A DNA stretch of 36,057 nucleotides from an uncultured Chthonomonas sp. (GTDB lineage Bacteria; Armatimonadota; Chthonomonadetes; Chthonomonadales; Chthonomonadaceae). The stretch covers positions 1 through 36,057 of the forward strand of contig CAIJLM010000556.1 of NCBI GenBank assembly GCA_903821495.1. Reading direction: 5' to 3'. The position numbers and the translations under genes were made by a program. Below, piece after piece: positions 4,393-36,057 of this stretch (positions are counted from its first letter, which is position 1; the number at the start of each line of letters is the position of its first letter). The notes beneath the pieces were generated by a model. That model ran no database searches. It saw only the letters and a list, made by a program, of their open reading frames with translations, and was not told where the DNA came from.

Positions 4393-4404
4393 ATTCGTCT
4401 CCTG

Positions 4405-5727: not shown

Positions 5728-5734
5728 CCTATAA

Positions 5735-17719: not shown

Positions 17720-17762
17720 AAAGCGCTCTGCGTCGTTACACAAAATTGAAGGACAAATTTCG

Positions 17763-19531: not shown

Positions 19532-19548
19532 ATCTATGATGATTGCAA

Positions 19549-20694: not shown

Positions 20695-20712
20695 CGGTGT
20701 CGTCCTTTCGTT

Positions 20713-21576
20713 CTATAGGCGCAGGCGCGAGAAGTGTTCCGGCAGTCCTTGAACTCCAAGTCGGAGGCGATAGAGGGAGCCTGCGTGTTCTCCATCCGTC
20801 GCTTTTTCGTCTCCGCCTGCGGTGGTGATGTACATATCTTTGTAGTCGTCGCCGCCGAAAATCACGCTAGAGACCTTCTTAACAGGGAAGTCAATCTGTA
20901 GCGTCTGTTCGCCCTGCGGGTTGAGGCGCACAAGGCGGTTTCCATCCCATCGCGCCGACCAGATATTGCCCTCTGCGTCTACCGTCATGCCGTCGGGCAG
21001 TCCCTCTTCGGGTGGGTTCGAGGCGAAAAGGGTCTGGTTGGAGAGGTCTCCCGTCGCCTCGTCGTAGTCGAAGCGATAGATTTTGTAGACCATCGAATCC
21101 GTGTAGTAGAGGTGTTTTCTATCGAGAGTAAGCCCCATGCCGTTGGAGCAGGAGATACCCTCTACCACTTTGTGAAGCGAGCCGTCTGTATCGAGGCGAT
21201 AGAGGTTGCCTAATCGGTCTCCGACGGGCATGGTTCCGCAGTAGACTCGCCCCTGCGGGTCTGCGAACACGTCGTTGAAGCGGGAGTCCTCTTCGCCCTC
21301 CAGCGCCTCGCGAATAGTGGTTAGTTCGCCGTCTTTCCAGTGGCGTATCCCGCCCTTGTTCATAAAGAGGAGGAGGGAGCCGTCCTCTTGAAAGGTGAAG
21401 CCGCCTACGGGGTCGCCGGTATAGAACTGCTCATGCTCGCCCGTTGCGGGGTCGTAGCGAAAGAGTCGCCCTGTGCTGATATCCGTCCAGTAGACGCGCT
21501 TTTCGAGGGGATGCCAGAGTGGGTTCTCCCCAACGACGCAGGCGTAATCTGCAATTAGTTCGAGTTCGACGCTCAT
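20713..21576 (-). CDS. SMP-30/gluconolactonase-family lactonase
   Basis: A 287-residue six-bladed propeller enzyme of the SMP-30/gluconolaconase/LRE family, which opens sugar lactones to aldonic acids. The metal ligands expected for the family are present: Glu17 (GENPLWHP), Asn145 (CSNGMGLT) and Asp195 (PDGMTVD). Asn101 (RFNDVFADPQGR) supplies the usual substrate-side residue. The length is typical. There is no signal peptide, so it acts in the cytoplasm. AAAGGAG lies six bases before the ATG. It could feed the galactonate dehydratase encoded nearby on the other strand, but the sequence does not fix which lactone it prefers. Confidence 0.9.
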   Translation of the reverse strand: MSVELELIADYACVVGENPLWHPLEKRVYWTDISTGRLFRYDPATGEHEQFYTGDPVGGFTFQEDGSLLLFMNKGGIRHWKDGELTTIREALEGEEDSRFNDVFADPQGRVYCGTMPVGDRLGNLYRLDTDGSLHKVVEGISCSNGMGLTLDRKHLYYTDSMVYKIYRFDYDEATGDLSNQTLFASNPPEEGLPDGMTVDAEGNIWSARWDGNRLVRLNPQGEQTLQIDFPVKKVSSVIFGGDDYKDMYITTAGGDEKATDGEHAGSLYRLRLGVQGLPEHFSRLRL

Positions 21577-21633
21577 TTCACGCTCCTTTGTGTGCCATCA
21601 ATTAGATATACGTTCTATGCACGAGTTTGGCTT

Positions 21634-22938
21634 CTAAGATTTTGTTGGCTTCTTCTTGAATTTGCTGGCGATAAGAGCCGCAAATACCACGCTATTAATC
21701 GCTACAATTAACAGCATACCGATAGCCCGCCCTCTTCTATTCGATATTGTAGCGCGAGATACCTGCGGATTGTCGGGCAGATACTCGACTCGTATGGGGT
21801 TTCCTATCTGTAGAGCCTTCGCCTCTTTTGGTACGATGGAGCTTTCGCCTTCGTACTCTACATTTAGCGCGGTGAAGGAGTAGTAGACGCGGTTTTGGGC
21901 GAGTTGGGTTATCCGTCCGTTGACAGGCTGGCTTTGACGGTCTAAAAGGCGTTCCGTTTGAAGGGCGGTCACACCCATAAACCCGATAGAACTCGCTATG
22001 CAAAGTAAAATCAGAAAGACGAATCCTAACTGTAGGTTATTACTGCCCCTCGTTTTTAGTTTTGCAGGGTCTTTCGGGGGCATTATGGGCATGGAGCGGT
22101 CTGAGATATAGCTCGCTAGAAAATGAGATTCCTGCGCCTCTCTCGGAAGTGTGATAGCGGTTTTGAGGCTACGTATCGTATATCCCGGCTTATGGACTTC
22201 GATGGCGGTTATATCGCGGAACTCGATTCGTTTGCTTATGAACGGGGCTTCAATGGCTACGCCCTGCCCGTCTATCTGAATTTTCCATCGGTAAAACCAG
22301 TATGCGCCGACCATTCCCGCTATACCGAACAGTTGCATTAGGACTAGCGCGATGCGGTCTGCTTCGGGATGCCTGGAGGGGGAGGAGGGCAGTAGAGGAA
22401 TCAGAAGAGAAAACACTCCACAGGCAATGGACAGGGGACAGGTTATTTTGCGGTGCGGGTAGAGAGTGGTCACTTCCTTTTCTATGCGCCCCCTCATTCT
22501 CTGCGTGACAGGCTCCAGGCGCAGTAGCAGGAGAGCGTTCATCTCGGAAGCCCTGTCGCCGACGTACACGAGGTGGATGGTAAGGGGGCTCCCTTCTGCA
22601 CGGCGCAGACGATAGACAGGTTTGCCCTCTTCAGAACGCACCTCGTAGACCGTGATTTCGTCCCATCGCGCCTCTTCGGTTCCCAGCCATGTCGTCTTTT
22701 TTACGCTCTGTTCGTCCAGCGTGTACAGCGCCCATGTCTCTATGCCTATATAGCGAACCGTTAGCGCAAAGAACGCGCCAAAAACCAGAAAGAACGCGCC
22801 GAACACTATCCATTCGCCGCTATGCTTGTGCGGCTCGGAGGTATAACCTATCACTCCTACGAGCAGGATGAGCGCGAAGCAACCTGAGAGAAACCAGAAC
22901 TGTTTTTTTCTCGCGGCGCTACTCTCGAATGTCTGCAT
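21634..22938 (-). CDS. Membrane protein with bacterial PH-like and DUF3592-like regions (long paralog)
   Basis: A 434-residue membrane protein starting at the ATG at 22938, five bases after GGGAGG. A pair of N-terminal membrane helices is followed by a soluble region (LDEQSVKKTTWLGTEEARWDEI). A second pair of helices follows, then a short beta-rich region resembling bacterial PH domains (QIDGQGVAIEAPFISKRIEF). One more helix, a DUF3592-like module (VNGRITQLAQNRVYYSFTAL with VEYLPDNPQVSRATI) and a final membrane helix complete it. The first 270 residues are paralogous to the protein encoded at 23014-23889. Residues near the C-terminus (AALIASK) are encoded by a 21-nt block that recurs upstream at 22962-22982. 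Role unknown. The family names are judged from pattern only. Confidence 0.7.
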   Translation of the reverse strand: MQTFESSAARKKQFWFLSGCFALILLVGVIGYTSEPHKHSGEWIVFGAFFLVFGAFFALTVRYIGIETWALYTLDEQSVKKTTWLGTEEARWDEITVYEVRSEEGKPVYRLRRAEGSPLTIHLVYVGDRASEMNALLLLRLEPVTQRMRGRIEKEVTTLYPHRKITCPLSIACGVFSLLIPLLPSSPSRHPEADRIALVLMQLFGIAGMVGAYWFYRWKIQIDGQGVAIEAPFISKRIEFRDITAIEVHKPGYTIRSLKTAITLPREAQESHFLASYISDRSMPIMPPKDPAKLKTRGSNNLQLGFVFLILLCIASSIGFMGVTALQTERLLDRQSQPVNGRITQLAQNRVYYSFTALNVEYEGESSIVPKEAKALQIGNPIRVEYLPDNPQVSRATISNRRGRAIGMLLIVAINSVVFAALIASKFKKKPTKS

Positions 22939-22961
22939 GACGACCTCCCAATTCACAAGGT

Positions 22962-22982
22962 TTTGCTGGCGATAAGAGCCGC
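22962..22982 (-). repeat. 21-nt footprint of the long paralog's 3' end
   Basis: The 21 bases at 22962-22982 are identical to 21661-21681, in the same orientation. At 21661-21681 they encode AALIASK near the C-terminus of the long membrane paralog. At 22962-22982 they lie in the noncoding gap just after the short paralog. This suggests the short paralog once had the same C-terminal region and lost the part in between. Confidence 0.65.
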
Positions 22983-23013
22983 CTGTCAAAATACGTTCGC
23001 GATACGCTTTGCG

Positions 23014-23889
23014 CTACGAAGCGGTAGGGAGTGTAGCGTATTGAGAGAGATATTCCAAGACGAACTGAAAATCGGGCATGGATGCGTTCAGAGGTATCTG
23101 CGTAGCCCCGCTATGGACGATATAGCCCTTCTGCGGGGTTTGAGTTATGGCGGTTATCTCGCTCAGTTTGATAACTGTTCGCGAGCGTAACGTTCTCTTC
23201 TCAAGCGTCTCCTTACCTATACGTAGCTCCTGACGGTAGAGAAAGTAGGCGTCAGCGAAGCAGTAAGCGGCGGCGCTAAGGGGCATGCCTAAGAAAGTGA
23301 AAGGGTGGTCTTTAACCCAATCTGATGGAGATAGAAGGCTGAGAGACCCTAAAACAAAAACTGCGCCATTTCCAAGGTATGCGTAGAAGATTGGTCCGCG
23401 TTGCGGAAAGTAGGTTTTGCCCCTGTGCAGTATCTCTTCCCGCTTTTTTCTCAGGGCTGGCGCAAGTTTCGCTACGAGTATCTCCTCAAATTCGGTAGCC
23501 TTTTTACCCGTATAGCCGAGTTGTACGACGAGGACGCTTCCGTTCTCACCTCTTGCTCTATATTGGGAATTACGTGGCGAAGTCGCTCTCACGTCAAAGT
23601 CGACGATTTCGTCCCAGCGTATCTCCCTTGTCTCAAGCCATGTCATCTTTTGGATGCTCTGTTCGTCCAACGCGTACCGCGCCCACGCTTCTAAACCCGT
23701 AAAACGAACGATTACGGTAAGCAGGGTCAGCAGAAGAAAACAAAAAAGACCAACCCCTATTTTGTCTAAGCGCGTAGTTGGGGGGGAGTCGAGGAAGAGC
23801 GCTACAACGGACGCAAGCAGAAACAGCCACATCGCCAATAACGCATAGAACCCTCGCTTCGCGCCTACGTCGCCCTCGAATGTCTGCAT
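23014..23889 (-). CDS. Membrane protein, short paralog of the adjacent PH-like protein
   Basis: A 291-residue membrane protein. Both paralogs begin MQTFE and share W(A)xY(A/T)LDEQS(I/V)(Q/K)K.TWL.T.E.RWDEI near residues 75-100, then a charged helical stretch. A second pair of hydrophobic segments and a PH-like strand region (LRIGKETLEKRTLRSRTVIKLSEI) follow. It ends where the long paralog continues into its DUF3592-like module, so it lacks about 140 C-terminal residues. A strong ribosome binding site (AAAGGAGGGA) precedes the ATG. It is the first gene of the minus-strand operon running to nth. Function unknown. I see no signal of decay inside the remaining frame. Confidence 0.7.
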   Translation of the reverse strand: MQTFEGDVGAKRGFYALLAMWLFLLASVVALFLDSPPTTRLDKIGVGLFCFLLLTLLTVIVRFTGLEAWARYALDEQSIQKMTWLETREIRWDEIVDFDVRATSPRNSQYRARGENGSVLVVQLGYTGKKATEFEEILVAKLAPALRKKREEILHRGKTYFPQRGPIFYAYLGNGAVFVLGSLSLLSPSDWVKDHPFTFLGMPLSAAAYCFADAYFLYRQELRIGKETLEKRTLRSRTVIKLSEITAITQTPQKGYIVHSGATQIPLNASMPDFQFVLEYLSQYATLPTAS

Positions 23890-23915
23890 AGCGTCCCTCC
23901 TTTTTGTATGATTCC

Positions 23916-23944
23916 ATTATACGCTAAAAAGAGTCTTATACAAA
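23916..23944 (-). promoter_or_regulatory. Probable promoter of the membrane-paralog/lactonase/YbjQ/nth operon
   Basis: TATAAT reads on the minus strand at 23916-23921, about 27 bp before the ATG at 23889. The -35 region (TTTGTA, complement of 23939-23944, 17 bp spacing) is poor. The downstream genes are separated by 17-75 bp and lack other obvious promoters, so this may drive all five. Confidence 0.5.
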
Positions 23945-24045
23945 ACTTAACAGAGAGGCTTTCCGCTTTGTGGTAGACTTTTGTAGTGTAGAACTGACGG
24001 GGCGAAACCCCGCAACATCAACTACATTGCAGAGGAGAAGAGAGC

Positions 24046-24420
24046 ATGAGCCGCGTTATTCATTTTGAGATTCATACCAACGAGCCGGAGAGAGCGATAA
24101 CGTTCTATAGCGAACTGTTCGGCTGGACATTCAACAAGTGGGGGGAGATGGACTACTGGGTTATACTGACTGGCGAAGGACCCGGTATTGACGGCGGGCT
24201 GATGAAGCGCCCTTGCGCCCCCGAAGGAGAGAGCATTTTCGCGTATGTGTGTACGGTAGATGTGGCGGATGTTCACGTCGCCACCGCTCGCGCTATCGAG
24301 TTGGGCGGTGTTGTGGCTATGCCCGTCGTGGCGGTTCCTACGGTGGGTTGGTTGGGGTACATAAAAGACACCGAGGGCAACACCTTCGGCATGATGCAGA
24401 TGGATCCTTCCGCCGCGTAG
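24046..24420 (+). CDS. VOC-family (glyoxalase/bleomycin-resistance-like) protein
   Basis: A 124-residue vicinal-oxygen-chelate fold protein. It opens with VIHFEIHTNEPERAITFYSELFGWTF, typical of the first beta-alpha-beta unit. The second unit (YVCTVDVADVHVATARAIELGGVV) ends in WLGYIKDTEGNTFGMMQ. Candidate metal ligands are His6 or Glu8 near the start and the Glu in DTEGN. The GAEGGK-like substrate signature of true glyoxalase I is absent, so the substrate is open. GAGGAGAAGAGAG precedes the ATG. The gene stands alone and converges with the glycosyltransferase-methyltransferase gene across a repeat element. Confidence 0.88.
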   Translation: MSRVIHFEIHTNEPERAITFYSELFGWTFNKWGEMDYWVILTGEGPGIDGGLMKRPCAPEGESIFAYVCTVDVADVHVATARAIELGGVVAMPVVAVPTVGWLGYIKDTEGNTFGMMQMDPSAA

Positions 24421-24491
24421 GGCTTTTGACGTAACGCCCATAGATAAGCGAACCGTCTCGCCTCGTAACTACTCAGCCTCTCTTTAGGGGA

Positions 24492-24664
24492 ACCTAACCC
24501 CCGTCCCCTTCCCGGCGCGGGAAGGGGTGACTCCAACAAAGACGGCGTTACGCTAGGATAGGCTTTGGCATAGGTCAAAAACCTATCGTTACATCGCCTC
24601 CGTTATCTTCTTAGCGACAGTGGTTCCCCCTTCCCGTTTCGGGAAGGGGGCTAGGGGGTTAGGT
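24492..24664. repeat. MITE-like element with terminal inverted repeats
   Basis: ACCTAACCCCC at 24492-24502 and its exact complement GGGGGTTAGGT at 24654-24664 bound a 173-bp segment. Inside each end lies a nested hairpin: CCCCTTCCCG/CGGGAAGGGG with a GCG loop on the left, and CCCCCTTCCCG/CGGGAAGGGGG with a TTT loop on the right. The two ends are imperfect inverted copies over about 38 bp. There is no reading frame in it. It sits between convergent genes, where it may also end transcription from both sides. Confidence 0.6.
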
Positions 24665-24713
24665 CGCATTGCATAGGGCGAGAGCGAAAGGCTCTACGCT
24701 TCTCCCTTTGAGG

Positions 24714-27677
24714 CTAAAACCGCGCCCCCAACCTCTCGAACTCAGACAGCAAAATTTTGGCGACATGGGAGTACGTAAAACTCTCTTCGAGATGCGTCCT
24801 CGCCCGTTGACCCATCTCTTTCGCCGTTTTCCTATCCTCAAAGACCTGCCGCATAAGTTGGCGCAGGCGCGGAAGCGAAGGCTCCGCCCACTGGTGTCCC
24901 TGATAAGTAGGAATTTCGCGCCAACTCGATTCGGGCACCTCCGTCAGCGTGTAGTCCAGAAGAAAGCTGTTCTCCTCACTCATAAAGGCGGTCTGTCCGC
25001 TCCACCCCGTGCCTATAACGGGAAGCCCCATCGCCATCGCCTCCATAAAAGGGCGCCCCCATCCCTCTCCGCGAGTGGGGAGTACAAAGCAGTCGGCGGC
25101 GCGATAGAGGTTTGGCATCTGCGCGTCCGGGATGTTCGTATCTTGGAAGATGACGAGCGGAATGCGGTTCGGGTCACAACCGACGGTCTCCGTCAGGTAG
25201 GTTGAGACCCTCTCTACAATTTTTTCGGTGGAGTAGCCGAAAGAGGAGTGCGTCTTAATAGTGAGCGACACATCCTCGTTCCTGCTGAACTCCTCCACGA
25301 ACGCCCGTATCAATACATCCCACCCTTTACGAATCTGCCAATCGAAGACAGAGAGGAAGTTATAGCCACGCGCCTCCTCAATGCCTAATGGGGCGCAGTT
25401 CGGGTTGTAGGGGGTCAAATCGATAGTTCCCGGCACGACGCGCAGTTTATCGGGGCGCACTCCCGCAAAAGTAAACGTCTCACGGTTGAACTCTGTGGGA
25501 ACCCATATCTCATCCATGCGGTTGCACGCCTCTACCCAGTCGGCGGGAAGCCTGTCCGTCTCGAACATCGTGCGCCCCACATTCACTCGCGCCTGCGGGT
25601 CGCGCTGTAGGCTTGGCGCAAGGATATGCGATATGCGTATAGGGCTTGCTTGCGCGGGGGTTTGGAGGAGTTTTTGCAGGATACGCTCGCGTTCGCGGGG
25701 CAGAGCCGCTATCTTATTACTCCACCGCAACTCTCGCGCAGCCACGCTAACCCCTACCGATTCCAGAGCGAACAGAAAGTGCCGCGCCTCGTCTGCGTAG
25801 CCGCTAGGGTCTAGCAGAGGCGCAGACCAGAGAACAGAGGAGAGCCTCGTCTGATTTTGTGGCGCAAGCGTCGCGCTAAATCCTGTTGTCAAAGCGCGTA
25901 GTTGGTTCCGCAGTTCGGAGATTTTGGGGTAGTCGCCCATCGCCGTCGCTATCTCTAGGCGTAGCCGAATAGCCTCCTCTTGAAGCGCGGGGTTTGGAGC
26001 CAATTTTAGCGCATCCTCCGCTTCCGCCACCGCCACCGGAGCCAGCCCCGAAGTAAATATGTCGCGGGAGTAGTTCATACTGCCGCGTGTCGCGTCTTCG
26101 GCGCGTCCCATATAGTCGTAGGGCGCGTCTTCGGTGTCGTCCTCTACACGCACTTCAAAAGGATGCTCTTCATCCCAACTCACCTGCGTGGTCGTTAGGT
26201 TGCGGAAAGAGACCTCGAAAGCGCGTTGAACGTCGCCTTGCGTGTAGAGCAGGGGTATTATCGCGCTGTGAAACGGCATTCTATCGAAAGGCTTGCGCTT
26301 AAAGACAATAGTGCGTGTCGCCGCCTCCCACTCTATTACCCAGCGGTGGGTAGGATGACCGTAGAAGCACTCCCAGAAGGTGTTGGGAGTCTCAAGAAAG
26401 CCCCGTTTCGCCACGCGCTGCAACTCCTTACAGGCGAGGGCGGGGTTCATAACGTGTTCTAACACCATGCGGCAACAGGCGACATCAAAGGCTTTGGTGG
26501 CGAAGGGAAGCCTCTGCACATCTCCGCAGACGAGCGGCTTCTCACGACTAATCGTCAGCCCCTGCCTATGCGCCCCTTCAAAAACATCGAAATCGATACT
26601 CACATCGGCGCGTTTCAGGGGTCTCTGTCCGCCGCCCACATCCAACACCCTATCGGTAGGCGTTATCCCCATATCGTCTGCAAGACGCGCATCGAAGTTC
26701 ACAAAAGCGTAGTAGACTTTGCCCCCGAAATTCGTTTTAATATCCTCTATGTCTTCCCGCATGGGCGGGAGCAGTTCGAGGTGCAGGGGGCTACTCGGAG
26801 CGGGAAGCGCCCGCGCATTCTTCTGGAAGCCTTCATGCGCGGGGGCGAGGCGGGAGGCTTCGCGGAAAGCCTTATTCGCCTCCGCATAGCGGGCGAGCAT
26901 CCAGAGAACACAGCCGAGCGCGTTCTGGGCTATCGCCGAGTTAGGGGTCAGGGTAACCGCCCGCTCTGCGTCGGGTAGTAGTAAAATGGGCGGGATATTC
27001 CCGAAGCGCATGCCCTGAATAGCGCGGTCGAGGTGCGCCTCTGCGCGTTGTAGCGGGTCGTCGGGGTCGTAGCCGTCGGGGTCGTCCTCCACCCGATAGG
27101 CGAAACCGCTCTCCCATGCGAACTGGGTGTGCGTTACGTTACGATAGGCGTACTCCCATGCAAAGCGATAGTCCGCGTCGTTGTGCAGTCGCCCGCTTAG
27201 AGCATGGCGGAAAATTGAGCGCCCAAAGGGCTTGCGCCGAAACACAAGAACCTCTTCGCCCTCGCTACCTTTCTCTACCGACACCAGCCAGCGATGCGCG
27301 GGGTCGCCTCCCAGATACTCGTTGAGCGGAGAGGGCGCTTCGAGAAAACCACGGGTTGCAACGGTTTGAAGCCTCTCGCACAGGGCGGCGGGGTCGGGAA
27401 CGGAAGCCAAGCCCTGCCGAATCAGTGCGAAATCGTACCCCGACTGAGAGAGAGAGAGGGGCGGGCGGGCGCTGTCAATCTCCAGAACGCGGTCAGCGGG
27501 ACTAATTTTTAGCAGGCTCCTCAGCAGGTCGGTCTGTAGCGTCGGGTAGTTGCGCCCTTGAAAGTTCATAAGGGGGAGTGTGCGAGACCTGCGCTCAATA
27601 TAGAGGCTCTGAGGCGTGTTCCAGAGGGAGTTGGTTTCGGCAAGCGTAGGCTTGCGTAGGGTTTGCGTAACGGTCAT
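24714..27677 (-). CDS. Methyltransferase-like x2 / GT4 glycosyltransferase fusion protein
   Basis: A 987-residue multidomain protein. Residues about 45-200 form a SAM-methyltransferase-like unit whose cofactor loop is degraded (VLEIDSARPP). A TPR-like stretch follows (AVTLTPNSAIAQNALGCV to KAFREASRLAP). Residues about 310-500 repeat the unit with an intact loop (VLDVGGGQRPL) and the same ending: G(D/H)P(A/T)HRW, (F)(R/K)RKPF, then VRVEDD or YRVEDD. A helical linker leads to a GT4 glycosyltransferase near 640-985 with EGWGRPFMEAMAMGLPVIGTGWSG at about 868. The ATG at 27677 has AAGGA nine bases upstream. It stands alone. It probably modifies a glycan or glycopeptide. The acceptor and sugar donor cannot be read. 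Confidence 0.82.
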   Translation of the reverse strand: MTVTQTLRKPTLAETNSLWNTPQSLYIERRSRTLPLMNFQGRNYPTLQTDLLRSLLKISPADRVLEIDSARPPLSLSQSGYDFALIRQGLASVPDPAALCERLQTVATRGFLEAPSPLNEYLGGDPAHRWLVSVEKGSEGEEVLVFRRKPFGRSIFRHALSGRLHNDADYRFAWEYAYRNVTHTQFAWESGFAYRVEDDPDGYDPDDPLQRAEAHLDRAIQGMRFGNIPPILLLPDAERAVTLTPNSAIAQNALGCVLWMLARYAEANKAFREASRLAPAHEGFQKNARALPAPSSPLHLELLPPMREDIEDIKTNFGGKVYYAFVNFDARLADDMGITPTDRVLDVGGGQRPLKRADVSIDFDVFEGAHRQGLTISREKPLVCGDVQRLPFATKAFDVACCRMVLEHVMNPALACKELQRVAKRGFLETPNTFWECFYGHPTHRWVIEWEAATRTIVFKRKPFDRMPFHSAIIPLLYTQGDVQRAFEVSFRNLTTTQVSWDEEHPFEVRVEDDTEDAPYDYMGRAEDATRGSMNYSRDIFTSGLAPVAVAEAEDALKLAPNPALQEEAIRLRLEIATAMGDYPKISELRNQLRALTTGFSATLAPQNQTRLSSVLWSAPLLDPSGYADEARHFLFALESVGVSVAARELRWSNKIAALPRERERILQKLLQTPAQASPIRISHILAPSLQRDPQARVNVGRTMFETDRLPADWVEACNRMDEIWVPTEFNRETFTFAGVRPDKLRVVPGTIDLTPYNPNCAPLGIEEARGYNFLSVFDWQIRKGWDVLIRAFVEEFSRNEDVSLTIKTHSSFGYSTEKIVERVSTYLTETVGCDPNRIPLVIFQDTNIPDAQMPNLYRAADCFVLPTRGEGWGRPFMEAMAMGLPVIGTGWSGQTAFMSEENSFLLDYTLTEVPESSWREIPTYQGHQWAEPSLPRLRQLMRQVFEDRKTAKEMGQRARTHLEESFTYSHVAKILLSEFERLGARF

Positions 27678-28041
27678 GGCGTTTTGTCCTTGAGGATTAC
27701 AGTTCACCCTTGTATTATCGGAAATCACGCAAAAAGAACTCAGTGGTTTCTCTAGGTTCAGACTAAGAGGCAGGCGTGATTCCGTAAATATACGGTGTTT
27801 TCGTTGTTTAGGTAAAGATTACAGGTTTTGCGCTCAAGTCGTATCTGAATTATCCGATAATTCTTCTGACTTAAATCGCCTTCGCCTTGAGAGATACTTT
27901 AAGAGCCGACTTGCCAAAGTAGCCTAACACTTTTTTCAGAAGTAGGTTGTTTGGATGGCAGGGGGAGCCTAGACGTTCGCCCGAATGAGAGCGAGAGCCT
28001 TGAAATACCGTAACCAGACTGAAATGCGAGGGTGGTAAGAT
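27678..28041. promoter_or_regulatory. Divergent intergenic region with a 17-bp palindrome
   Basis: This 364-bp gap separates the divergent glycosyltransferase fusion and HDOD genes. GAATTATC (27847-27854) and GATAATTC (27856-27863) form a perfect palindrome around C27855. Its right arm contains GATAAT, a possible -10 box toward the HDOD gene, so it is a plausible operator. A smaller hairpin, CCGTA-AATA-TACGG, lies at 27782-27795. On the minus strand a GATAAT near 27714-27719 could be a -10 for the fusion gene. No -35 box is convincing. I see no small gene and no known riboswitch. Confidence 0.45.
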
Positions 28042-28995
28042 ATGCCTAAAACATCTGTAGAATCGAAAAACACAGCAGTAGAGACCAAAACCAGATACCG
28101 CTCCGCTCCCGCGCCTCGCGCAGAGGCTGAGAGCGCTAAAAAGTGTCTTCCCATATCCGCAGAAGAGGTGTTGGCAGGTGTACGCGACCTTCCCGCTATG
28201 CCGAATGTGGTCATAAAAATTATGCGAATGACGGGCAAGGGGGAGACTTCGTCGCCGAAAGAGTTGTCGAGCATTATCGCGCAAGACCCCAATTTTTCTG
28301 CGCGTATCCTCAAGATGGCGAACTCCGCCTACTACGGCTTGCCGCGCTCGGTATCCACGCTGTCCGATGCGGTTCTTATGCTAGGCAACCACTCTATTCG
28401 GAATATAGCGATGCTCGCCGCCACCAAAGACACTCTGCGTCAGAAGATAGAGGGCTATGAACTCCGCCCTGGCGAACTATGGAGACACTCTCTGATGTGC
28501 GCGTTGGCATCACAACTGCTGGCGGAGCAGACCTTCTACCACGATAAAGAGGTCGCTTTTGTGGGCGGTCTCCTCCACGATGTGGGCAAACTCGTACTAG
28601 GTCCCTACGTACACGATAGGCTACCCGCCATCCGCGAAACGATTGCGGCGCAGGGGTGTTCATTTGTGGAGGCGGAACGCGCCGTTTTAGGGTTCGACCA
28701 TGCTGAGATTGGAGGCAGAATAGCCCTTCACTGGAACCTTCCCTCCGCTCTCGTGAGCGCCATCTCGCTTCATCATAATCCGGTGCAAAAAGAGTGTGTT
28801 AGCCCGCTAGTGGCGCTCGTCTATCTCGGTAATCTCATCTGTTTCTCTAGCGCCGATAGTAGCGCAGTAGGTGGTTCTAGCGAAACTAATAAGCAGTGCA
28901 TGGAGGTACTTCACCTAAAGGAGAAGCATATCTCCTCAGTGATTCTGAACCTTCAAGAGCAGATGGAGAAAGTCCCCTTGCTTTCAGTGGAGTAG
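28042..28995 (+). CDS. HDOD-domain signalling protein
   Basis: A 317-residue protein with an HDOD domain near residues 45-250, preceded by a basic, Ser/Ala-rich N-terminal stretch of about 30 residues. Typical HDOD features are LPAMPNVVIKIM, IIAQDPNFSARILKMANSAYYGLPR, VSTLSDAVLMLGNHSIRNI and the degraded HD-type motif GGLLHDVGKLVLG. The sequence continues HAEIGGRIALHWNLP and ISLHHNP. HDOD proteins act in stress, c-di-GMP and motility control without being proven phosphodiesterases. The HD pair is retained here, so catalysis cannot be excluded. GAGGGTGG precedes the ATG. CheR follows 63 bp downstream. Confidence 0.9.
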   Translation: MPKTSVESKNTAVETKTRYRSAPAPRAEAESAKKCLPISAEEVLAGVRDLPAMPNVVIKIMRMTGKGETSSPKELSSIIAQDPNFSARILKMANSAYYGLPRSVSTLSDAVLMLGNHSIRNIAMLAATKDTLRQKIEGYELRPGELWRHSLMCALASQLLAEQTFYHDKEVAFVGGLLHDVGKLVLGPYVHDRLPAIRETIAAQGCSFVEAERAVLGFDHAEIGGRIALHWNLPSALVSAISLHHNPVQKECVSPLVALVYLGNLICFSSADSSAVGGSSETNKQCMEVLHLKEKHISSVILNLQEQMEKVPLLSVE

Positions 28996-29058
28996 CCATA
29001 GAACTCGCCACTTGTTTAGAGCGGATTGCAGAGGGCGGGCTAGAAAGGGGCGTAGAAG

Positions 29059-29982
29059 ATGGAGTGGAGAACCCTCCGACAGGGAGCGAACTCGCTTAGG
29101 AGCGTAGGAGCGCCGAATAGCCTTTTTGCGCCGTTGAGAGAGCAGCCTCCTCTCTCTGAATCACTCTCTCAAGACTCGACGGACTATCTACGCTTCAAAG
29201 AGGCTATCTATCGTAAAACAGGCATAGACCTCAACCTCTACAAACAACAGCAGATGCAACGTCGCCTCTACAACATGGTGGAGCGGGCGGGCTTGAAGAC
29301 CTTTGAGGAGTATTTCGCTCTCATCAACCGAGAGGATAGCGCGTTTTTCTCCTTTTTAGACCGTATGACCATCAACGTTTCGGAACTTTTTCGGAACCCT
29401 GAAAAGTGGCAGGAGCTACAGACCTACATTCTGCCGTCCCTGTTGAAAGCGAGAAGCGGGCTTCGTATCTGGAGCGCAGGTTGCTCTTATGGGGCGGAGC
29501 CGTACACTTTGGCGATTTTGCTCGACGAACTTAGCTCCGGAACACAGCATATCCTACACGCTACCGACCTTGACCGTAAGATGTTGGCGAAAGCGCGTGA
29601 AGGCTGTTTCACGACAACCGATGTGAAAGGCGTGGCTCTCCCGCTTTTAAGCAGGTATTTCCTCACGCTGGATAGGGCGAAGGAGCGACAGTCTAACCCG
29701 ACGCTACCCATCTATCAGGTGAAGCCGGAGATAAGGAGCGGAGTCGCGTTTCAACAGCATAACCTTCTTGCAGATAGGTTCGATAAGGACTACGACCTGA
29801 TTTGCTGTCGGAACGTGGTTATCTACTTTACCGATGAGGCGAAAGACCGCCTCTACCAGCAGTTCGTGCAGTCTCTTCGTATAGGAGGCTTTCTCTTTGT
29901 GGGAGGCACGGAGCGGATTTTGAACTATGCGGAGATGGGATTGGAAAGTCCCTATCCGTTCTTCTATCGTCGTATACGGTGA
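29059..29982 (+). CDS. cheR: CheR-type chemoreceptor glutamate methyltransferase
   Basis: A 307-residue CheR, which transfers methyl groups from SAM to glutamates of chemoreceptors. The N-terminal helical domain is typical (IYRKTGIDLNLYKQQQMQRRL, FLDRMTINVSELFRNPEKW). The SAM loop is IWSAGCSYGAEPYTLAILL, and DYDLICCRNVVIYF and FLFVGGTERI follow. The first 40 residues are a weakly conserved extension. ATG 29059 is the first start after in-frame stops, but its ribosome binding site (AGAAG) is poor, so the true start may be further in. No CheB, CheA or receptor gene is nearby. The methylated target may thus be encoded elsewhere. Confidence 0.9.
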   Translation: MEWRTLRQGANSLRSVGAPNSLFAPLREQPPLSESLSQDSTDYLRFKEAIYRKTGIDLNLYKQQQMQRRLYNMVERAGLKTFEEYFALINREDSAFFSFLDRMTINVSELFRNPEKWQELQTYILPSLLKARSGLRIWSAGCSYGAEPYTLAILLDELSSGTQHILHATDLDRKMLAKAREGCFTTTDVKGVALPLLSRYFLTLDRAKERQSNPTLPIYQVKPEIRSGVAFQQHNLLADRFDKDYDLICCRNVVIYFTDEAKDRLYQQFVQSLRIGGFLFVGGTERILNYAEMGLESPYPFFYRRIR

Positions 29983-30083
29983 CTCTTACAAAATTGCTAT
30001 CCAGCCGCCCCTAAAGCAAGCCGAAAATCAAGAGTGTAGCCATACTCAACGAACCGACTTGGGGATACTAGGAGAGACAGAAC

Positions 30084-30257
30084 ATGAGCGTAAACATGAC
30101 AAGCGGAGTCAGCGGAAGTATTCTCGCCTCCATGAACAACAACGTGGAGGCGGGGACCCTACTGCTAAAGAAGGCGGCTAACGCCGACAAGGAGATGGTG
30201 CAGGAGCTACTGCCCCCGCCGCCCCCCCATAATGGCAAACTGGACATAAGCGCGTAG
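30084..30257 (+). CDS. Small YjfB-like putative motility protein
   Basis: A 57-residue protein, easily missed because of its size. It opens MSVNMTSGVSGSILASMNNN, has the central helix TLLLKKAANADKEMVQELL, then five prolines, and ends NGKLDISA. This layout (Ser/Ala-rich helix, LLKKA.....M..LL, short linker, LDI.A end) matches the YjfB family of putative motility proteins, often found beside flagellar or chemotaxis genes. AGGAGA lies about nine bases before the ATG. It follows CheR by 101 bp and is followed by a strong terminator, so it closes the HDOD-CheR cluster. The function of the family is unknown. Confidence 0.75.
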   Translation: MSVNMTSGVSGSILASMNNNVEAGTLLLKKAANADKEMVQELLPPPPPHNGKLDISA

Positions 30258-30301
30258 AGGGCTGTTTGATACGAGCGCCCTATTGGTTTTGTAGCGACTT
30301 G

Positions 30302-30331
30302 GAGGCGGGAGAACTCTCCCGCCTCTTTTTT
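30302..30331 (+). terminator. Intrinsic terminator after the YjfB-like gene
   Basis: GAGGCGGGAG (30302-30311) pairs perfectly with CTCCCGCCTC (30316-30325) around AACT and is followed at once by six T (30326-30331). This is a textbook Rho-independent terminator, 45 bp after the stop codon. It closes the HDOD-CheR-YjfB transcript and isolates it from the SDR genes. Confidence 0.93.
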
Positions 30332-30426
30332 CGTCAATCCTACAGACAAATTTTCGCTATTTACTATCGCTCGTTTTTGGTGTAGAGTGAGGGGTATCCA
30401 CAAACAGAACGAAGGAGAGGCAAACA

Positions 30427-31176
30427 TTGGGAAACTTAGACGGGCGAGTAGCCATTGTGACGGGAGGAGCGCGAAGCATCGGCTTTGCGATAGCCACGCG
30501 CCTAGCGCAGTCAGGGGCGCATATTGTGATAGCGGACATAGACGGGGCGGTAGCGGAGGACTCGGCGGCGTGTCTTCGCGCTGAGGGAGTGGAGGCTTTG
30601 GCGGTTGAGACCGACTGCGCCAACCGCGAATCTATTGAGGCGATGGTCGCCAAGACGTTAGAGCGTTTCGGTAGAGTAGATATTCTCGTCAACAACGCGG
30701 GAATTTCGGGCGGCTCGGCGCGACTCTGGGAGCAGACCGACGAGAACTGGGATAGAGTGATGGCGCTCAACCTCACGGGGGTCTTCTACGCCTGTAGAGC
30801 CGTGATTGGAGCCATGCGGACGCAGAAGAGCGGCGCGATTGTGAGTATCGCCTCCATTGCAGGCAAGGAGGGCAACCCTACGCTTATCCCCTACTCCGTA
30901 TCCAAAGCGGGCGTTATCGGTCTGACGAAGGCGTTGGCGAAAGAGGTGGCTACGGAGGGGATTCGCGTCAACTGCGTGGCTCCCGCCGTCATTGAGACCG
31001 TCATTCTCAACCAGATGTCGGAGGAGACGGTCAACTACATGATAAGCAAAATCCCGATGGGGCGCGTCGGAAAGCCGCAGGAGGTCGCCGCCGTCGTGAA
31101 CTTCCTCGCTTCGGACGACGCGAGTTTCGTAACGGGGCAGTGCTACGATGTGAGCGGCGGGAGGGCTACCTACTAA
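30427..31176 (+). CDS. Short-chain dehydrogenase/reductase (FabG-like)
   Basis: A 249-residue classical SDR oxidoreductase. The cofactor loop is TGGARSIG (12-19), Asp37 at the end of strand two favours NAD(H), NNAG lies at 89-92, and Asn115, Ser143, Tyr156 and Lys160 (YSVSK) form the catalytic set. The C-terminus DVSGGRATY is typical. The start appears to be TTG at 30427: GGAGAGG lies six bases before it, there is no in-frame ATG nearby, and the next codons encode the family N-terminus. The following epimerase gene overlaps the stop by one base (TAATG). The substrate may be a sugar, sugar acid or polyol, but this is not determinable. Confidence 0.9.
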   Translation: MGNLDGRVAIVTGGARSIGFAIATRLAQSGAHIVIADIDGAVAEDSAACLRAEGVEALAVETDCANRESIEAMVAKTLERFGRVDILVNNAGISGGSARLWEQTDENWDRVMALNLTGVFYACRAVIGAMRTQKSGAIVSIASIAGKEGNPTLIPYSVSKAGVIGLTKALAKEVATEGIRVNCVAPAVIETVILNQMSEETVNYMISKIPMGRVGKPQEVAAVVNFLASDDASFVTGQCYDVSGGRATY

Positions 31177-31910
31177 TGCGCGTACTGGTTATCGGGGGCG
31201 CGGGGTATGTCGCCTCCATCACGCTACCCTACCTTATGGAACGACACGAACTCCGCATCTACGACAGAGTTGCGCCAAAACACGACGCTGTGACGGAGTT
31301 TATCGAGGGGGATGTGTGCGATTTCGAGGCGGTTCGGGCGGCTTCAGAGGGGTGCGACGCGCTTCTCTATATGGCGATGGGGCGTTATATTCCTATTGGA
31401 ACGCCCTACGCCGAAAACGTGGATGCGCTGACGAGTTCTCTGGATGCGAACGTAAAGGGACTCTACCTGTCGCTCTACGCGGCGAACACGGCGGGTATTC
31501 AACACGCCGTCTACACTAGCAGTATGTCTATCTACTCGGAAGAGAACCTCTATCAGCGGTACTTTCCCGACGAAGACCTTACCCCCGATGCCAGAGACAA
31601 CTACGGCTTCACCAAGCGCATGGGCGAACTTGTCTGTCAGAACGCCTGTCGGGAGCGTGGTATGAGCGTAAACGCCCTACGGCTCTGCTTTCCGCGCCTT
31701 GACGCAGACTGGCGCGCTGAAACGACAGACGATAAGCCTACAATCGCGACAGCCGCCTCGGATGTCGCGGGCGCGTTTGAAGCGGCGCTTCAACTTAGGG
31801 CGGGGTATCAGACGTTTATGTTATCAGGGGACTACCGAAACACGATACTGAACATGAGCAAGGCGAAGCGGCTACTGGATTGGGAGCCGCGTGTCCGCCC
31901 TGAAAAGTGA
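31176..31910 (+). CDS. NAD-dependent epimerase/dehydratase-like protein (extended SDR)
   Basis: A 244-residue extended-SDR protein. The Rossmann loop is VLVIGGAGYVAS (3-14), with Ser in place of the last Gly of the usual GxxGxxG. TSSMSIY and YGFTK supply the Ser/Tyr-x3-Lys catalytic set. The protein is shorter than typical nucleotide-sugar epimerases (310-340), mostly in the C-terminal substrate domain, which suggests a small substrate or a dehydrogenase role as in uronate dehydrogenases. The ATG shares one base with the SDR stop, and GGGAGGG lies about 11 bases upstream. Together with the SDR gene it forms a two-gene operon. Confidence 0.82.
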   Translation: MRVLVIGGAGYVASITLPYLMERHELRIYDRVAPKHDAVTEFIEGDVCDFEAVRAASEGCDALLYMAMGRYIPIGTPYAENVDALTSSLDANVKGLYLSLYAANTAGIQHAVYTSSMSIYSEENLYQRYFPDEDLTPDARDNYGFTKRMGELVCQNACRERGMSVNALRLCFPRLDADWRAETTDDKPTIATAASDVAGAFEAALQLRAGYQTFMLSGDYRNTILNMSKAKRLLDWEPRVRPEK

Positions 31911-31927
31911 GGCTTTCCCCCTCGATT

Positions 31928-31974
31928 TATGCGTATATCCCCCTCCCGATTCTGGGCAGGGGGATGTACGCATA
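31928..31974. terminator. Long hairpin between convergent genes
   Basis: TATGCGTATATCCCCCT (31928-31944) pairs with AGGGGGATGTACGCATA (31958-31974); the only mismatch becomes a G-U pair in RNA. The loop contains CCCGATTCTGGGC. It stands midway between the epimerase stop (31910) and the serine hydrolase stop (31998). It could end transcription from both sides or be a dispersed repeat like those at 24492-24664. There is no T tract on the plus strand. Confidence 0.55.
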
Positions 31975-31997
31975 GGTCTGGGCGTGCATAGAGCGCG

Positions 31998-34121
31998 TTA
32001 TCTTGCTGTGCCTTCCGCCGTATCGGTAGCCTCAAACAGGCTATCCGATAGCTCTTCGTCTAACTTCGCCTTCTGAACCGTGACGATGACATTACCCTCG
32101 CCCTGAGTGGTTAGGAACGCACGGAAGGGGTAGACGAAAGCGCCAACCTTGCGGTAGTCGTGGTAGGTGGTCGTCGCGCCTTTGGAGACGCTTTTCAGGA
32201 TGAGGTAGCTCTGTGTTGAGACGTACTCTTTGATGGCTGCTCCTTTGTCGGGGGTCTTCTCCAAAACGTAAGCCTCTTCGCCATCCACCTTCTCAACCCC
32301 TGTAATAGCGATACTCTTGTAGAGCCGTTTCGCTTCCAGAAGGGCGTACAGAATATGTCCGCGCCCCGCGTCCGCCAGTTCGTCGCCGCTCTTTGTATTG
32401 GGGAGGGTGAAACTGCTCGTATTTCCGCCGTTTACGCCGTCAAAGTACTCGCGTATCCAGCCTATCCTCTTTCCCGACGCACGTAACTCGTTGGTCTCGC
32501 CTGTAAGGTTCGGCGCTTTGTAGTACTGCGTGACGGTGTTGGTGTATCCCTGACTCTCCAGCTCTACCAAAGCCGTTATCGTTATCGTCTTAATCTTGCG
32601 AAGGTTCGCCTCGCCACCTACAGCGGTCAGCATTTTTTGCAGGAGTTCGTCTGTAGAGATAGGCGACTGGAAGGCGGATTTCGCCTCCTTCTTAACGAGA
32701 GTGATAGCGCCCTGCGGCTGTTCAAGGAAGGCTTCCGTAACATTGGGGCTCTCTTTCTTGGGGCGGAAGGTGACGAAGAAACCTGCGGGCGCAGGAGAGC
32801 CTAGTTTGTACCGCCTACCGCCCAGAGATTCCAGCGTGTAGGCGGGTTGACCGGGAACTTTCACTACCAGTTTGCTATTTTCAAAGGTTATATTAAAGTC
32901 TACGTTCGCCTCCGCAAGATGATAGACTCCCGCCTCCTCTTCCGGTTTCACAGTAGAGGCTTGGGGCGTTTGCGGTTTTGTCTCCTCAGTTTTCTTTGCG
33001 CCGCCTACAAGATTCTCCCAAACGCTCTCCATCATACTGGAGCCGAGCGATGAAGCGCTGACGTTGGTGAGAAGGACAAAGCCTAACTTCTGGTCGGGCA
33101 TCAGCGCAACCTGCGCGTTGAAGCCATCTATGTTGCCGCCATGCTCTACTATCTTGTGCCCATTCCAGTCGTGGAGCATCCAGCCAAACCCGTAGTTCGC
33201 TTTCGCGCTCATCTTCATCTGCGGCTTCGTCATCTCGTCAATGCTCGATTCTGCGAGAAGTCTTTTGCCGTTGTAGACTCCCCTGTTCAGCCAGAGACGC
33301 ACCCACTGCGCCATCTCAGTTGCGTTGGAGTTTATGGCTCCTGCGGGGGCGGCGTTTGTGAGGTCGCGCATAGGCAGATGTTCCGCCTGTTTTTTTGTTT
33401 CAGAGTAGGCGTATCCGAGCGCGTAGTCGGGATAGCGGCGCATCTCTCGCGGGGTAAAGTTGGACTCTTTCATTCCAAGCGGCGCGAAGATACGCTGTCG
33501 CGTGAAGTTTTGCCAACTTGTCTTCTGGACTCGCGCTACGATTTCGCCAGCGGTGAGGAACATCACGTTCTGATACTGGAACTTCTCGCCCAATTTCGCA
33601 GTGGGAACGGCGGTACAGGCGGCTCGAATCACCTCCTCCGGACTAAGAACGCCCGTGTACCACATAATGTCAGTACGCGGTAGCCCAGAGCGGTGGCAGA
33701 GCAGGTCGCGAATGGTGATTCGCGTGTCTGCATCCGAGTCGCGGAGGTGAAAGAAGGGGAGGTACTGGCGTGGCGCGTCCTCTAGGCTGAGTCTCTTCTC
33801 CTCTAGCGACATCATCACAGACGTTGCGGTGAAGGCTTTGGACGAGGAGCCTATCGCGAAGAGCGTGTTGGGCGTGACGGGCAGTTTCGCCTCTACATTG
33901 CGTAGCCCCAAGCCCTTGCTATAGATAATTGTGTCGTCTTTCACAATGGCGATAGCTACGCCTGGTATATGAAGTTCCTTGTATTTTTTGTCGAGGGTCT
34001 CTTCAATTTTCGCCAGTTTGGACGCAAAGACATCTGTGGTTTGAGCGTAGGCGGGGAGCGAGGCGGCGGCGAGGAGCCATAGAGAGCCTACTACGTAAGC
34101 GGAGCGAGTGCGGGAACGCAT
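31998..34121 (-). CDS. Large exported serine hydrolase (beta-lactamase fold) with C-terminal extension
   Basis: A 707-residue secreted protein with a signal peptide ending near AYAQ (residue 27). The penicillin-binding fold is intact: S92-S-S-K95, Y183-Q-N185 and H327-G-G. Residues about 385-480 resemble DUF3471, which commonly follows this fold. Residues about 490-707 (LLQKMLTAVGGEANLRKIKTI and YVLEKTPDKGAAIKEYV) look like the LolA/lipoprotein-sorting type of beta sheet found in periplasmic proteins. AAGGAGA lies nine bases before the ATG. It is a monocistronic homologue of the protein encoded at 2974-4392, with a longer tail. Substrate unknown; an envelope or peptide-degrading role is the inference. 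Confidence 0.87.
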   Translation of the reverse strand: MRSRTRSAYVVGSLWLLAAASLPAYAQTTDVFASKLAKIEETLDKKYKELHIPGVAIAIVKDDTIIYSKGLGLRNVEAKLPVTPNTLFAIGSSSKAFTATSVMMSLEEKRLSLEDAPRQYLPFFHLRDSDADTRITIRDLLCHRSGLPRTDIMWYTGVLSPEEVIRAACTAVPTAKLGEKFQYQNVMFLTAGEIVARVQKTSWQNFTRQRIFAPLGMKESNFTPREMRRYPDYALGYAYSETKKQAEHLPMRDLTNAAPAGAINSNATEMAQWVRLWLNRGVYNGKRLLAESSIDEMTKPQMKMSAKANYGFGWMLHDWNGHKIVEHGGNIDGFNAQVALMPDQKLGFVLLTNVSASSLGSSMMESVWENLVGGAKKTEETKPQTPQASTVKPEEEAGVYHLAEANVDFNITFENSKLVVKVPGQPAYTLESLGGRRYKLGSPAPAGFFVTFRPKKESPNVTEAFLEQPQGAITLVKKEAKSAFQSPISTDELLQKMLTAVGGEANLRKIKTITITALVELESQGYTNTVTQYYKAPNLTGETNELRASGKRIGWIREYFDGVNGGNTSSFTLPNTKSGDELADAGRGHILYALLEAKRLYKSIAITGVEKVDGEEAYVLEKTPDKGAAIKEYVSTQSYLILKSVSKGATTTYHDYRKVGAFVYPFRAFLTTQGEGNVIVTVQKAKLDEELSDSLFEATDTAEGTAR

Positions 34122-34222
34122 AGTGTTGTATCTCCTTGAAGGTAGAGCGGAGTTAAGAAACTCCGCGAAAAGCGGCGCATTCGCCCCTCGCCGCTTCAGA
34201 GAGGGGTTGGGGAGAGGCTAGG
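34122..34222. repeat. Short C/G-run hairpin in an intergenic gap
   Basis: CCCCTC near 34183-34188 can pair with GAGGGG a few bases on, followed by TTGGGGAGAGGC. The segment read on the minus strand (CTCCCCAACCCCTCTC) resembles the C-run hairpins in the 9.7-10.0 kb and 24.5 kb gaps. No gene is present. Confidence 0.35.
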
Positions 34223-34978
34223 CTATCCCGCCTTTTTTGCAATTGTTAGGAGCGTGACTCCAAAGGGGAGATTGACCCGACGCGCTACCGAGTTCTCTAC
34301 TGCAAGTAGCTTCTTGAGACCGAAATTTACGGGCGCGGGGAAGAGCGGGATGGAGGTATGAGAGTAGTGGCTCTTGATAGGCTTCCTTGCGCTCAGGCGG
34401 CGTTGTAGAGCCACGATGGGGTAGAGAGTAGTCATCGTGTGGGAGATTTTCTCTACGCGAAAGCCAGCGGCGCGGACGCGACTGAGAAGTTCGGGGCGCA
34501 GGTAGCGGCGGAAGTGCATAGCGGCGACATCGTGGTCGCTCCAGAGATGCGGATAGGCGGGAACAGTGGCTATCATCGTTCCGCCGGGCTTCAGCACGCG
34601 GTAGAACTCGGAAAGCGCGGCGGCGTCATCGGGAAGGTGTTCTAGCATATCCATTGCGATAAGCACATCGAACTGCCCGGTGGCGAGCGGAAGTTTCATT
34701 GCGTCGGCGCGAACCATACTCGTTAACCCCCTCCGTTGCGTAAAATGAAGGGCGAGCGGCGAGAAGTCTGCGGAGACCACTCTGCCCCACTTGGTGAGAC
34801 GCGCCGACATGGCTCCTGTGCCGCACCCTACATCGAGTATCGTCCGTTCTGAGATAGAGAGAGGGTTTGGCGCTCCAAAGCGAGAGCGGAGAATGGATTC
34901 AACAAGGCAGTGCCTACCGACATACCACCAGTACGAATCCTCCAAGTGATACATTCGCTCATACTCTTCGGTGTTCAT
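34223..34978 (-). CDS. Class I SAM-dependent methyltransferase
   Basis: A 251-residue methyltransferase. It opens with the aromatic-rich motif MYHLEDSYWWYVGRH found in a group of glycan- and lipid-linked methyltransferases. The SAM loop is ILDVGCGTGAMS, motif II is VSADFSPLAL, and FDVLIAMDMLEHLPDD and YRVLKPGGTMIATVPAYPHLWS follow. A basic C-terminal segment (RRLSARKPIKSHYSHTS) and a hydrophobic end may associate with the membrane. Its start overlaps the GT2 stop as ATGA, so the two are translated together. The linkage suggests a substrate made or displayed by that transferase, perhaps a polyprenyl-linked sugar. Confidence 0.88.
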   Translation of the reverse strand: MNTEEYERMYHLEDSYWWYVGRHCLVESILRSRFGAPNPLSISERTILDVGCGTGAMSARLTKWGRVVSADFSPLALHFTQRRGLTSMVRADAMKLPLATGQFDVLIAMDMLEHLPDDAAALSEFYRVLKPGGTMIATVPAYPHLWSDHDVAAMHFRRYLRPELLSRVRAAGFRVEKISHTMTTLYPIVALQRRLSARKPIKSHYSHTSIPLFPAPVNFGLKKLLAVENSVARRVNLPFGVTLLTIAKKAG

Positions 34979-35760
34979 GGGGTGGGCAACCTATAGGGGG
35001 AGGTAGCCTCGCCGTAGTGGGTGAAGCGTATGCGAAAGAGAGTTTTCAACATTCTGATAGCGTCTCGAACGAAGCGGACTTTCGAGCCTTCCTGATGCGC
35101 CCAGCGCACGGGGATTTCGGAGATTCTCAAGCCGTATTTCCGCGCTAGAAATAGCGCCTCCACATCAAAAGCGAAGTGGTCTATCTGGCAACGCGAGAAG
35201 ATGGCTAACGCGGAGCGGCGCGTGAAGAGTTTGAAGCCGCACTGCGTGTCGTGGATACCGGGAACAGCGATAAGTTGGACGAGTTGATTGAAGAAGCGCC
35301 CCCCCATCTCCCTCACCATAGATTGACGGCGGATAAGTTGGGAGCCTACGGTGTCTCGCGAACCAATCGCAATATCACAACCGTTGTCCAGCGCCTCCGA
35401 GAGTTTTTCTATCTCTTCAATGGGGGTCGCTAGGTCGGCATCGCTAAATAGAAGACGCTCTCCTCCTGCGGCGAGCATTCCCACGCGCACAGCGTAGCCT
35501 TTCCCGCGATTGGGGCTATAGGTCATTAGGCGCACTTGCGCGTGCGCTTCCGCTATTCTGTTTACAATAGCGTTAGTGCCATCGTCGCTACCATCGCTCA
35601 CAACGAGGAGTTCAAAACTCTCGCCTCTCGCTTCCAAGTAGGCGACCATGCGCTCCAAAGTGGCTCCGATACGCGCCTCTTCGTTGTACGCTGGGACGAT
35701 AATAGACAGTCGTGGAGACGTAGTCTCTCCCTCTTCCTTCGCAGATGAAACAGGATTCAA
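34975..35760 (-). CDS. Family 2 glycosyltransferase (dolichyl-phosphate glucosyltransferase-like)
   Basis: A 261-residue GT-A glycosyltransferase like ALG5/DPG synthases that load a sugar onto polyprenyl phosphate. IIVPAYNEEARI, VVSDGSDDGT, YSPNRGKGYAVRVGM, LFSDADLATPIEE (with the DxD metal site) and GSRDTVGSQLIRRQS are typical. So are GIHDTQCGFKLF and IDHFAFDVEALFLARKYG. I chose a TTG start at 35760 because AAAAGGAG lies seven bases upstream. The longer frame from 35790 would add ten mostly basic residues (RVKKKRSVR) and overlap that site. No transmembrane helix is evident. The methyltransferase gene follows with a four-base overlap. Confidence 0.9.
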   Translation of the reverse strand: MNPVSSAKEEGETTSPRLSIIVPAYNEEARIGATLERMVAYLEARGESFELLVVSDGSDDGTNAIVNRIAEAHAQVRLMTYSPNRGKGYAVRVGMLAAGGERLLFSDADLATPIEEIEKLSEALDNGCDIAIGSRDTVGSQLIRRQSMVREMGGRFFNQLVQLIAVPGIHDTQCGFKLFTRRSALAIFSRCQIDHFAFDVEALFLARKYGLRISEIPVRWAHQEGSKVRFVRDAIRMLKTLFRIRFTHYGEATSPYRLPTP

Positions 35761-35971
35761 TCTGACGCTCCTTTTCTTTTTAACGCGCAAGGCTAAACAG
35801 GCGCTGACATAGCCTTCGCCCCCCGATGGCGCTCTCTCGCTGGCAGTGCATTATATTCCACAACCCCCCCTTTAGTCAATATACGGATGGAAAGGGCGAA
35901 AGGTTTACTCTATATTAAAGGCGAAAGGAGTCCTCTTGAGACAAATTCGCCACTATTTTGAGTGAAAGCGC

Positions 35972-36001
35972 TTGACAGGCTGACAAAAAACGGTGTACAG
36001 T
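35972..36001 (+). promoter_or_regulatory. Promoter pointing out of the right edge
   Basis: TTGACA at 35972-35977 and TACAGT at 35996-36001 are 18 bp apart. Just downstream are the small hairpins GACG-CTCGTG-CGTC and CGTAA-AAA-TTACG (36023-36035), then GAGGGAGG near 36046-36053, which looks like a ribosome binding site. A gene probably begins just beyond base 36057. The rest of the 35761-36057 gap shows nothing further. Confidence 0.65.
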
Positions 36002-36057
36002 TATTAGTAGACGCTCGTGCGTCGTAAAAATTACGTACATTCGCAGAGGGAGGTCTC

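Follow-up and report, generated by a model that had tools for sequence, protein, structure and literature searches.

A predicted HDOD, CheR and YjfB-like remainder of a chemotaxis operon reduced in place in an Armatimonadota genome

Chemotaxis adaptation operons of the CheC/CheD/CheX type are known from Bacillus and Thermotoga. In the literature searched, no paper was found that joins HDOD proteins with CheR, CheC and CheD, and none that deals with CheC, CheD and CheX in Armatimonadota. A paper found on the loss of chemotaxis genes and CheR has, judged by its title, another subject. YjfB is reported as an uncharacterised small protein placed in a flagellar sub-module and in operons with sigma-28 (PMC11607428), and yjfB appears in an expression table (PMC4326333).

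The window analysed here, 36,057 nucleotides long, is one entire contig (C556) of a draft genome of an uncultured Chthonomonas sp., referred to as G000 (5.37 Mb in 733 contigs, 97% complete, 2.7% contamination). A sequence-only reading of this DNA had picked out an HDOD gene, a cheR gene and a frame of 57 residues as a cassette of an orphan methyltransferase with its own regulator and small partner. All three are present where they had been noted and run in the same direction. The methyltransferase does lack its usual local partners; Pfam scans of 17 proteins of the window yielded no CheA, CheW, CheB or receptor. The comparison set included three genomes of the same genus (G001, the sister genome G002, and G003, which is 64% complete). 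An operon-type CheR (E below 1e-48) occurs in 19 of the 41 genomes searched, G000 counted in, and the operon locus was examined in the 18 others.

The eight-gene operon of relatives and its counterpart in the window

The genes in all three same-genus genomes follow the order CheC-CheD-HDOD-CheB-CheR-CheY-CheX-YjfB, CheC of G003 being truncated by the contig end. The Che genes of G002 were verified by Pfam and those of G001 and G003 by in-house profiles, which were built from the loci that they score and are no independent proof for these two genomes. Close versions of the full operon are also found in other Armatimonadota. HDOD lies within the operon in 9 of the 18 loci and is missing between CheD and CheR in 6, while 3 end at contig edges; the peptide follows CheX in 9, was not found there in 8 and could not be judged in 1. 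In the 14 loci judgeable for both, which come from related, non-independent genomes, HDOD and peptide occur together in 7, HDOD alone in 2, the peptide alone in 0 and neither in 5. One genome with neither at the locus (G013) carries a peptide gene on another contig.

The neighbourhood of CheR was surveyed over up to 7 kb per side, less at contig ends, with in-house profile thresholds. Among the best 80 of 204 CheR relatives, the Armatimonadota loci are L087-L095, L110, L112, L118, L125 and L126 (L088, L091 and L092 by assumption), L087-L094 being the same loci as 8 of the 18 above. The same order without a peptide match is found in L095, L110, L112, L118 and L126, and without an HDOD match in L125. 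The remaining 66 loci of these best 80, all outside Armatimonadota, have neither HDOD nor peptide near CheR (0/66), and conservation of the trio beyond the phylum was rejected.

Seven of the 18 other loci hold HDOD, CheR and peptide together, and in these CheC, CheD, CheY and CheX are present in 7/7 and CheB in 6/7. The idea of a self-made cassette of methyltransferase, regulator and partner does not survive this comparison, since the trio in every one of them belongs to a Che operon. The sequence-only reading had named, as a result that would speak against it, relatives in which the three genes are always part of a complete chemotaxis operon. The relatives come close to that picture in their CheC, CheD, CheY and CheX and depart from it in one respect: the same-genus operons, read on contigs of 5.8-11.8 kb, showed no CheA, CheW or receptor gene.

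By the letters of the DNA, the window trio is this eight-gene operon reduced in place, with three gaps that took five genes (cheC and cheD, cheB, cheY and cheX). The DNA match between G002 and G000 is interrupted at the missing genes. Upstream of the trio stands a gene for a 1004-aa protein with methyltransferase and glycosyltransferase domains (24714-27728, minus strand). G001 has this same neighbour, and the gene's cluster precedes the operon in G004, G006, G011 and G014 as well. A leader at 27796-27875 (plus strand, as are the operon features of the window below) is the homologue of the 80 bases that precede G002 cheC, with 91% identity. It is followed at 27891-27927 by a remnant of the cheD 3' end with a broken frame, whose last codons read LAKVA-stop and whose positions 27911-27926 are identical (16/16) to the end of G002 cheD. 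At 29002-29043 a remnant of the cheB 3' end, SPLV-stop-SGLQRAG-stop with an in-frame TAG, can be compared with the G002 end PPLLQSRLQRAG-stop. The third junction, a spacer at 29983-30083, shows in sequence alignment short resemblances to the cheR-cheY spacer of G001 and a cheY-like ribosome-binding site. Its stretch 30063-30086 aligns to G001 5268-5290, ending at the ATG that opens the presumed cheY frame, and has no alignment of equal score to G002; the ribosome-binding site directly precedes the peptide ATG at 30084. Because the cheD and cheB remnants and the cheY-like ribosome-binding site are still in place, the operon genes appear to have been lost rather than absent from the start.

The reduction is known from one draft genome, G000. 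As observations beside it, a separately reduced operon of HDOD-CheB-CheR only is found in G017 (contig C34; L049 8445-11304), a genome in which neither the CheC nor the CheX profile matches. At window 24465-24682 lies an interspersed repeat, some 200 bases long, on which most of the other G000 matches listed for window 16101-36057 fall (49 matches including the window's own, from a scoring of 40 of 186 candidates).

The three retained genes

The HDOD gene (28042-28995) encodes 317 aa and matches PF08668 with 198.8 bits against a cut-off of 22.9, and the HD-type His/Asp motifs are present in the alignment; it also scores 36 bits, above the cut-off, with the HDIG model TIGR00277. CheR (29059-29982, 307 aa) is predicted to be a chemoreceptor-type protein-glutamate methyltransferase, with an N-terminal all-alpha domain (PF03705, 53.2 bits) and a SAM-binding domain (PF01739, 162.4 bits), both above cut-off. 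DNA identity to G002 is 85% for HDOD and 82% for CheR. The HDOD gene of G002 itself (L033 6315-7268, minus strand) is cut to 306 aa by an in-frame stop.

The 57-aa peptide (30084-30257) was aligned with its family of 10 members. Alone it matches PF14070 (YjfB) with 17.1 bits, under the curated cut-off of 27, and is for this reason named YjfB-like only; of the 10 aligned members, 6 reach the model with E of 1 or below, the best at 1.4e-7. L28, L53, D54 and A57 are invariant across the alignment. Both the five-proline run and the terminal LDISA are there as first described, the former common only to the window peptide, G002 and G001 among the 10 members. The DNA is 74% identical to G002, with 9/9/28 mismatches by codon position, and a profile of the 10 members picks out 26 of the phylum's 151 genomes (E up to 0.01). 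The small frame is a conserved gene. YjfB-like genes also stand apart from che-operon genes in other Armatimonadota (L197-L202); the one in L200, for example, has a ketoacyl synthase and an integrase nearby. FliG accompanies an operon-type CheR in 18 of 19 genomes and occurs in a further 5 that lack this CheR.

Two direct connections of the peptide with CheR were considered and rejected. Against its being a substrate, no Glu column reaches 90% conservation among the 10 members, and no receptor-type methylation site was recognised by eye. The receptor pentapeptide motif is xWxxF, and the LD[IV]xA end of the family is unlike it, which speaks against a tether in the style of the receptors. The terminator described after the trio was recovered as a terminator-like hairpin at 30301-30326, with 11 pairs, 8 of them G-C, and then a T run. 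A scan of 27700-30600 gave 3 such sites against 2.6 expected, and this one is therefore set apart only by its stem.

All three genes are free of stops and frameshifts. Since the Yang-Nielsen estimate of dN/dS is unusable for most of the distant pairs and synonymous sites to G001/G003 are saturated in most pairs, only the G000-G002 ratios and amino-acid counts were used. By two methods, dN/dS is 0.08/0.12 for HDOD, 0.09/0.13 for CheR and 0.09/0.22 for the peptide. Amino-acid changes polarised by G001/G003 number 7 on the G000 branch against 9 on the G002 branch in HDOD, 19 against 19 in CheR and 8 against 5 in the peptide, with 21, 14 and 4 unpolarised, respectively. At the columns that are invariant across 15 Armatimonadota relatives the window CheR is unchanged throughout, the alignment covering 15 of the 18 loci. 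Judged by these patterns of substitution, the three kept genes are still evolving like working genes, and for that reason their job may not depend on the lost chemotaxis genes.

Chemotaxis genes elsewhere in the genome

Profile matches to CheW, CheA and receptors in G000 occur only on contig C563, and the CheC and CheX profiles have no match in the genome. In the 18 other genomes with an operon-type CheR, the CheX profile matches 16 and the CheC profile, which also matches CheX genes, 17. The C563 cluster (L051, 2-8344) is a complete chemosensory cluster of CheY, CheA, CheW, CheR, CheD, CheB and a receptor, and holds both the one CheA match and the one receptor match (PF00015) of G000. The CheA of the cluster shares 63-64% identity with CheA of G004 (contig C14) and G007 (contig C99) and 33-36% with the G001 and G002 proteins, which are 71% identical to each other; the cluster is therefore taken as another class. 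G001 and G002 have one CheA match each, of a class other than that of C563, and G003 has none. Receptor matches number 1 in G000, 3 in G001 and 2 in G002, and from these counts genus-type receptors have probably been lost from G000.

This cluster suggests that CheR might have been kept because it also methylates the C563 receptor, HDOD and YjfB then being separate passengers of the flagellar regulon. The presence of exactly one receptor match, within a complete cluster, would agree with such a use, as would the fact that the window CheR is an ordinary CheR by sequence. The cluster, however, has its own CheR, 34% identical to that of the window, as well as its own CheB and CheD, and its CheA places it in another class. 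We regard this explanation as tentative and somewhat unlikely.

A second che locus of the genus has also been reduced. In G002 a cheW-cheA pair is followed by an HDOD gene; at the matching place on contig C650 of G000, some 120 bases stand where G002 has about 2.5 kb. The pair has been deleted there, leaving a remnant of the cheA tail with a broken frame. Over the 99 bases of this tail, mismatches are 8/7/14 of 33 at codon positions 1/2/3, and the coding pattern is largely gone. As the frame is broken and the coding pattern mostly effaced, the tail suggests that the loss of cheA is not recent; the sample is small and dates cheA, not the window gaps. The second HDOD gene itself (L203, C650 7788-8693, minus strand) is intact, with 301 aa and 206.6 bits to PF08668. 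With HDOD intact both in the window and on C650, the two HDOD genes have outlived the che genes that adjoined them.

Three gaps in one operon and the loss of cheA-cheW amount to strong erosion of the pathway, and it could be argued that the operon is dying and that its three genes have merely not been lost yet. The intact frames of the trio argue against this, as do the lack of a clear acceleration on the G000 branch (the peptide has 8 changes against 5) and the conservation of CheR at the columns invariant in its relatives. The seemingly old cheA loss, with the reservation given above, points the same way. On balance a dying operon is an unlikely explanation.

The draft state of the genome, with 733 contigs and 2.7% contamination, and the restriction of the reduction to one genome could also be taken to indicate an artefact of assembly or binning. 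Against this stand the diverged and partly decayed remnants at two of the three junctions, the cheY-like ribosome-binding site at the third, and the decay of cheA-cheW on another contig. Nor were the lost copies found elsewhere: among the 43 G000 matches listed, from a scoring of 40 of 156 candidates, none covers the cheC-cheD, cheB or cheY-cheX stretches of G002, and the CheC and CheX profiles find nothing, although C563 carries a CheB, a CheD and a CheY of its own. An artefact is thus very improbable. A misplaced contig was considered since FliG of G000, on contig C88, is 93% identical to G001 and 89% to G002, yet the window is nearer G002. The FliI-like ATPase (93% to G002, 90% to G001) and FliH (65% and 63%) of the same contig are also slightly nearer G002, and for this reason the window was not taken as foreign. 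Just past these flagellar genes, C88 (L078) carries at 4214-6022 a gene for an RCC1-repeat protein, matched over 11 stretches and left open by the end of the contig.

Proposed roles and comparison with known systems

A strict pattern for a sigma-28 (FliA/SigD)-like promoter motif, TCAA-N15-TCCGATAA, matches at 27834-27860, kept from the ancestral operon, and fits the sigma-28 consensus. It is the single match in the window against 0.15 expected per shuffled window (100 shuffles), for a pattern chosen after the site had been seen. An equivalent motif lies close upstream of cheC in G002, G001 and G009 and further upstream in G020, and CCGATAA occurs no more than 75 bases from the presumed start of the operon in only 4 of the 13 relatives viewed. 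The motif was not found before the tested receptor and cheW genes of G001/G002, nor before the tested C563 genes.

Taken together, we favour, with a probability of roughly 0.55, a reduced Che operon whose HDOD, CheR and YjfB genes have been kept for a flagellum-linked job without the flagellar CheA. The sequence shows the in-place loss of cheC with cheD, cheB, and cheY with cheX from an Armatimonadota chemotaxis operon; what remains would be read from a flagellar sigma-28 promoter. The three products may then serve the flagellum or the motile state without a CheA-CheY phosphorelay. In favour of this, G000 still carries FliG, FliH and a FliI-like ATPase. The likeliest role of HDOD would be that of a regulator of the motile/sessile switch, that of YjfB a small accessory of the flagellar regulon, and that of CheR a methyltransferase with a substrate different from the genus-type flagellar receptors. 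A more specific proposal, which we consider unlikely, is that CheR, HDOD and the peptide form a sigma-28-controlled unit independent of the flagellar phosphorelay. In it HDOD and YjfB would partner a CheR that methylates some flagellar or regulatory protein other than a receptor, the loss of the phosphorelay in this species having exposed a hidden function.

The suggestion that an orphan methyltransferase modifies a non-canonical target has fared better than the cassette in which it was framed. The picture of a built cassette was wrong; a non-canonical target of CheR has become more plausible on the present comparisons, because the genus-type CheA has been lost from G000 and CheR shows no sign of relaxation. 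With CheA, CheW, CheB, CheC, CheD, CheX and CheY gone at the two loci known from G002, and two HDOD genes, CheR and a small YjfB-like protein left there, this genome may be seen as a natural gene-loss experiment. It distinguishes the components of a che operon with a role in the phosphorelay from those that may have none, offers a concrete way into the unsolved roles that YjfB and HDOD proteins play in motility, and provides a candidate for CheR activity beyond the usual receptors.

Comparison with described systems places the retained genes within known families. The best solved match of CheR is PDB 5FTW, the CheR of Bacillus subtilis (225.7 bits, residues 51-305); the loop start differs, being GAE and not GEE, and GAE is found in 16/16 Armatimonadota rows and in the Selenomonas row. 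The peptide has its small size in common with YjfB, a putative motility protein (PF14070) reported beside sigma-28 in flagellar operons (PMC11607428), and differs in its proline-rich linker, its position at the end of a che operon and its score below the cut-off. The window CheR and the CheC, CheD, CheB, CheY-like and CheX proteins of G002 match the Pfam families of CheC/CheD/CheX-type adaptation operons, and the best NCBIfam matches of CheC, CheD and CheX are Thermotogales models, below the equivalog cut-offs. Compared with those operons, the window keeps CheR alone of their members, whereas the Armatimonadota operon has an HDOD gene and a YjfB-like gene built into it.
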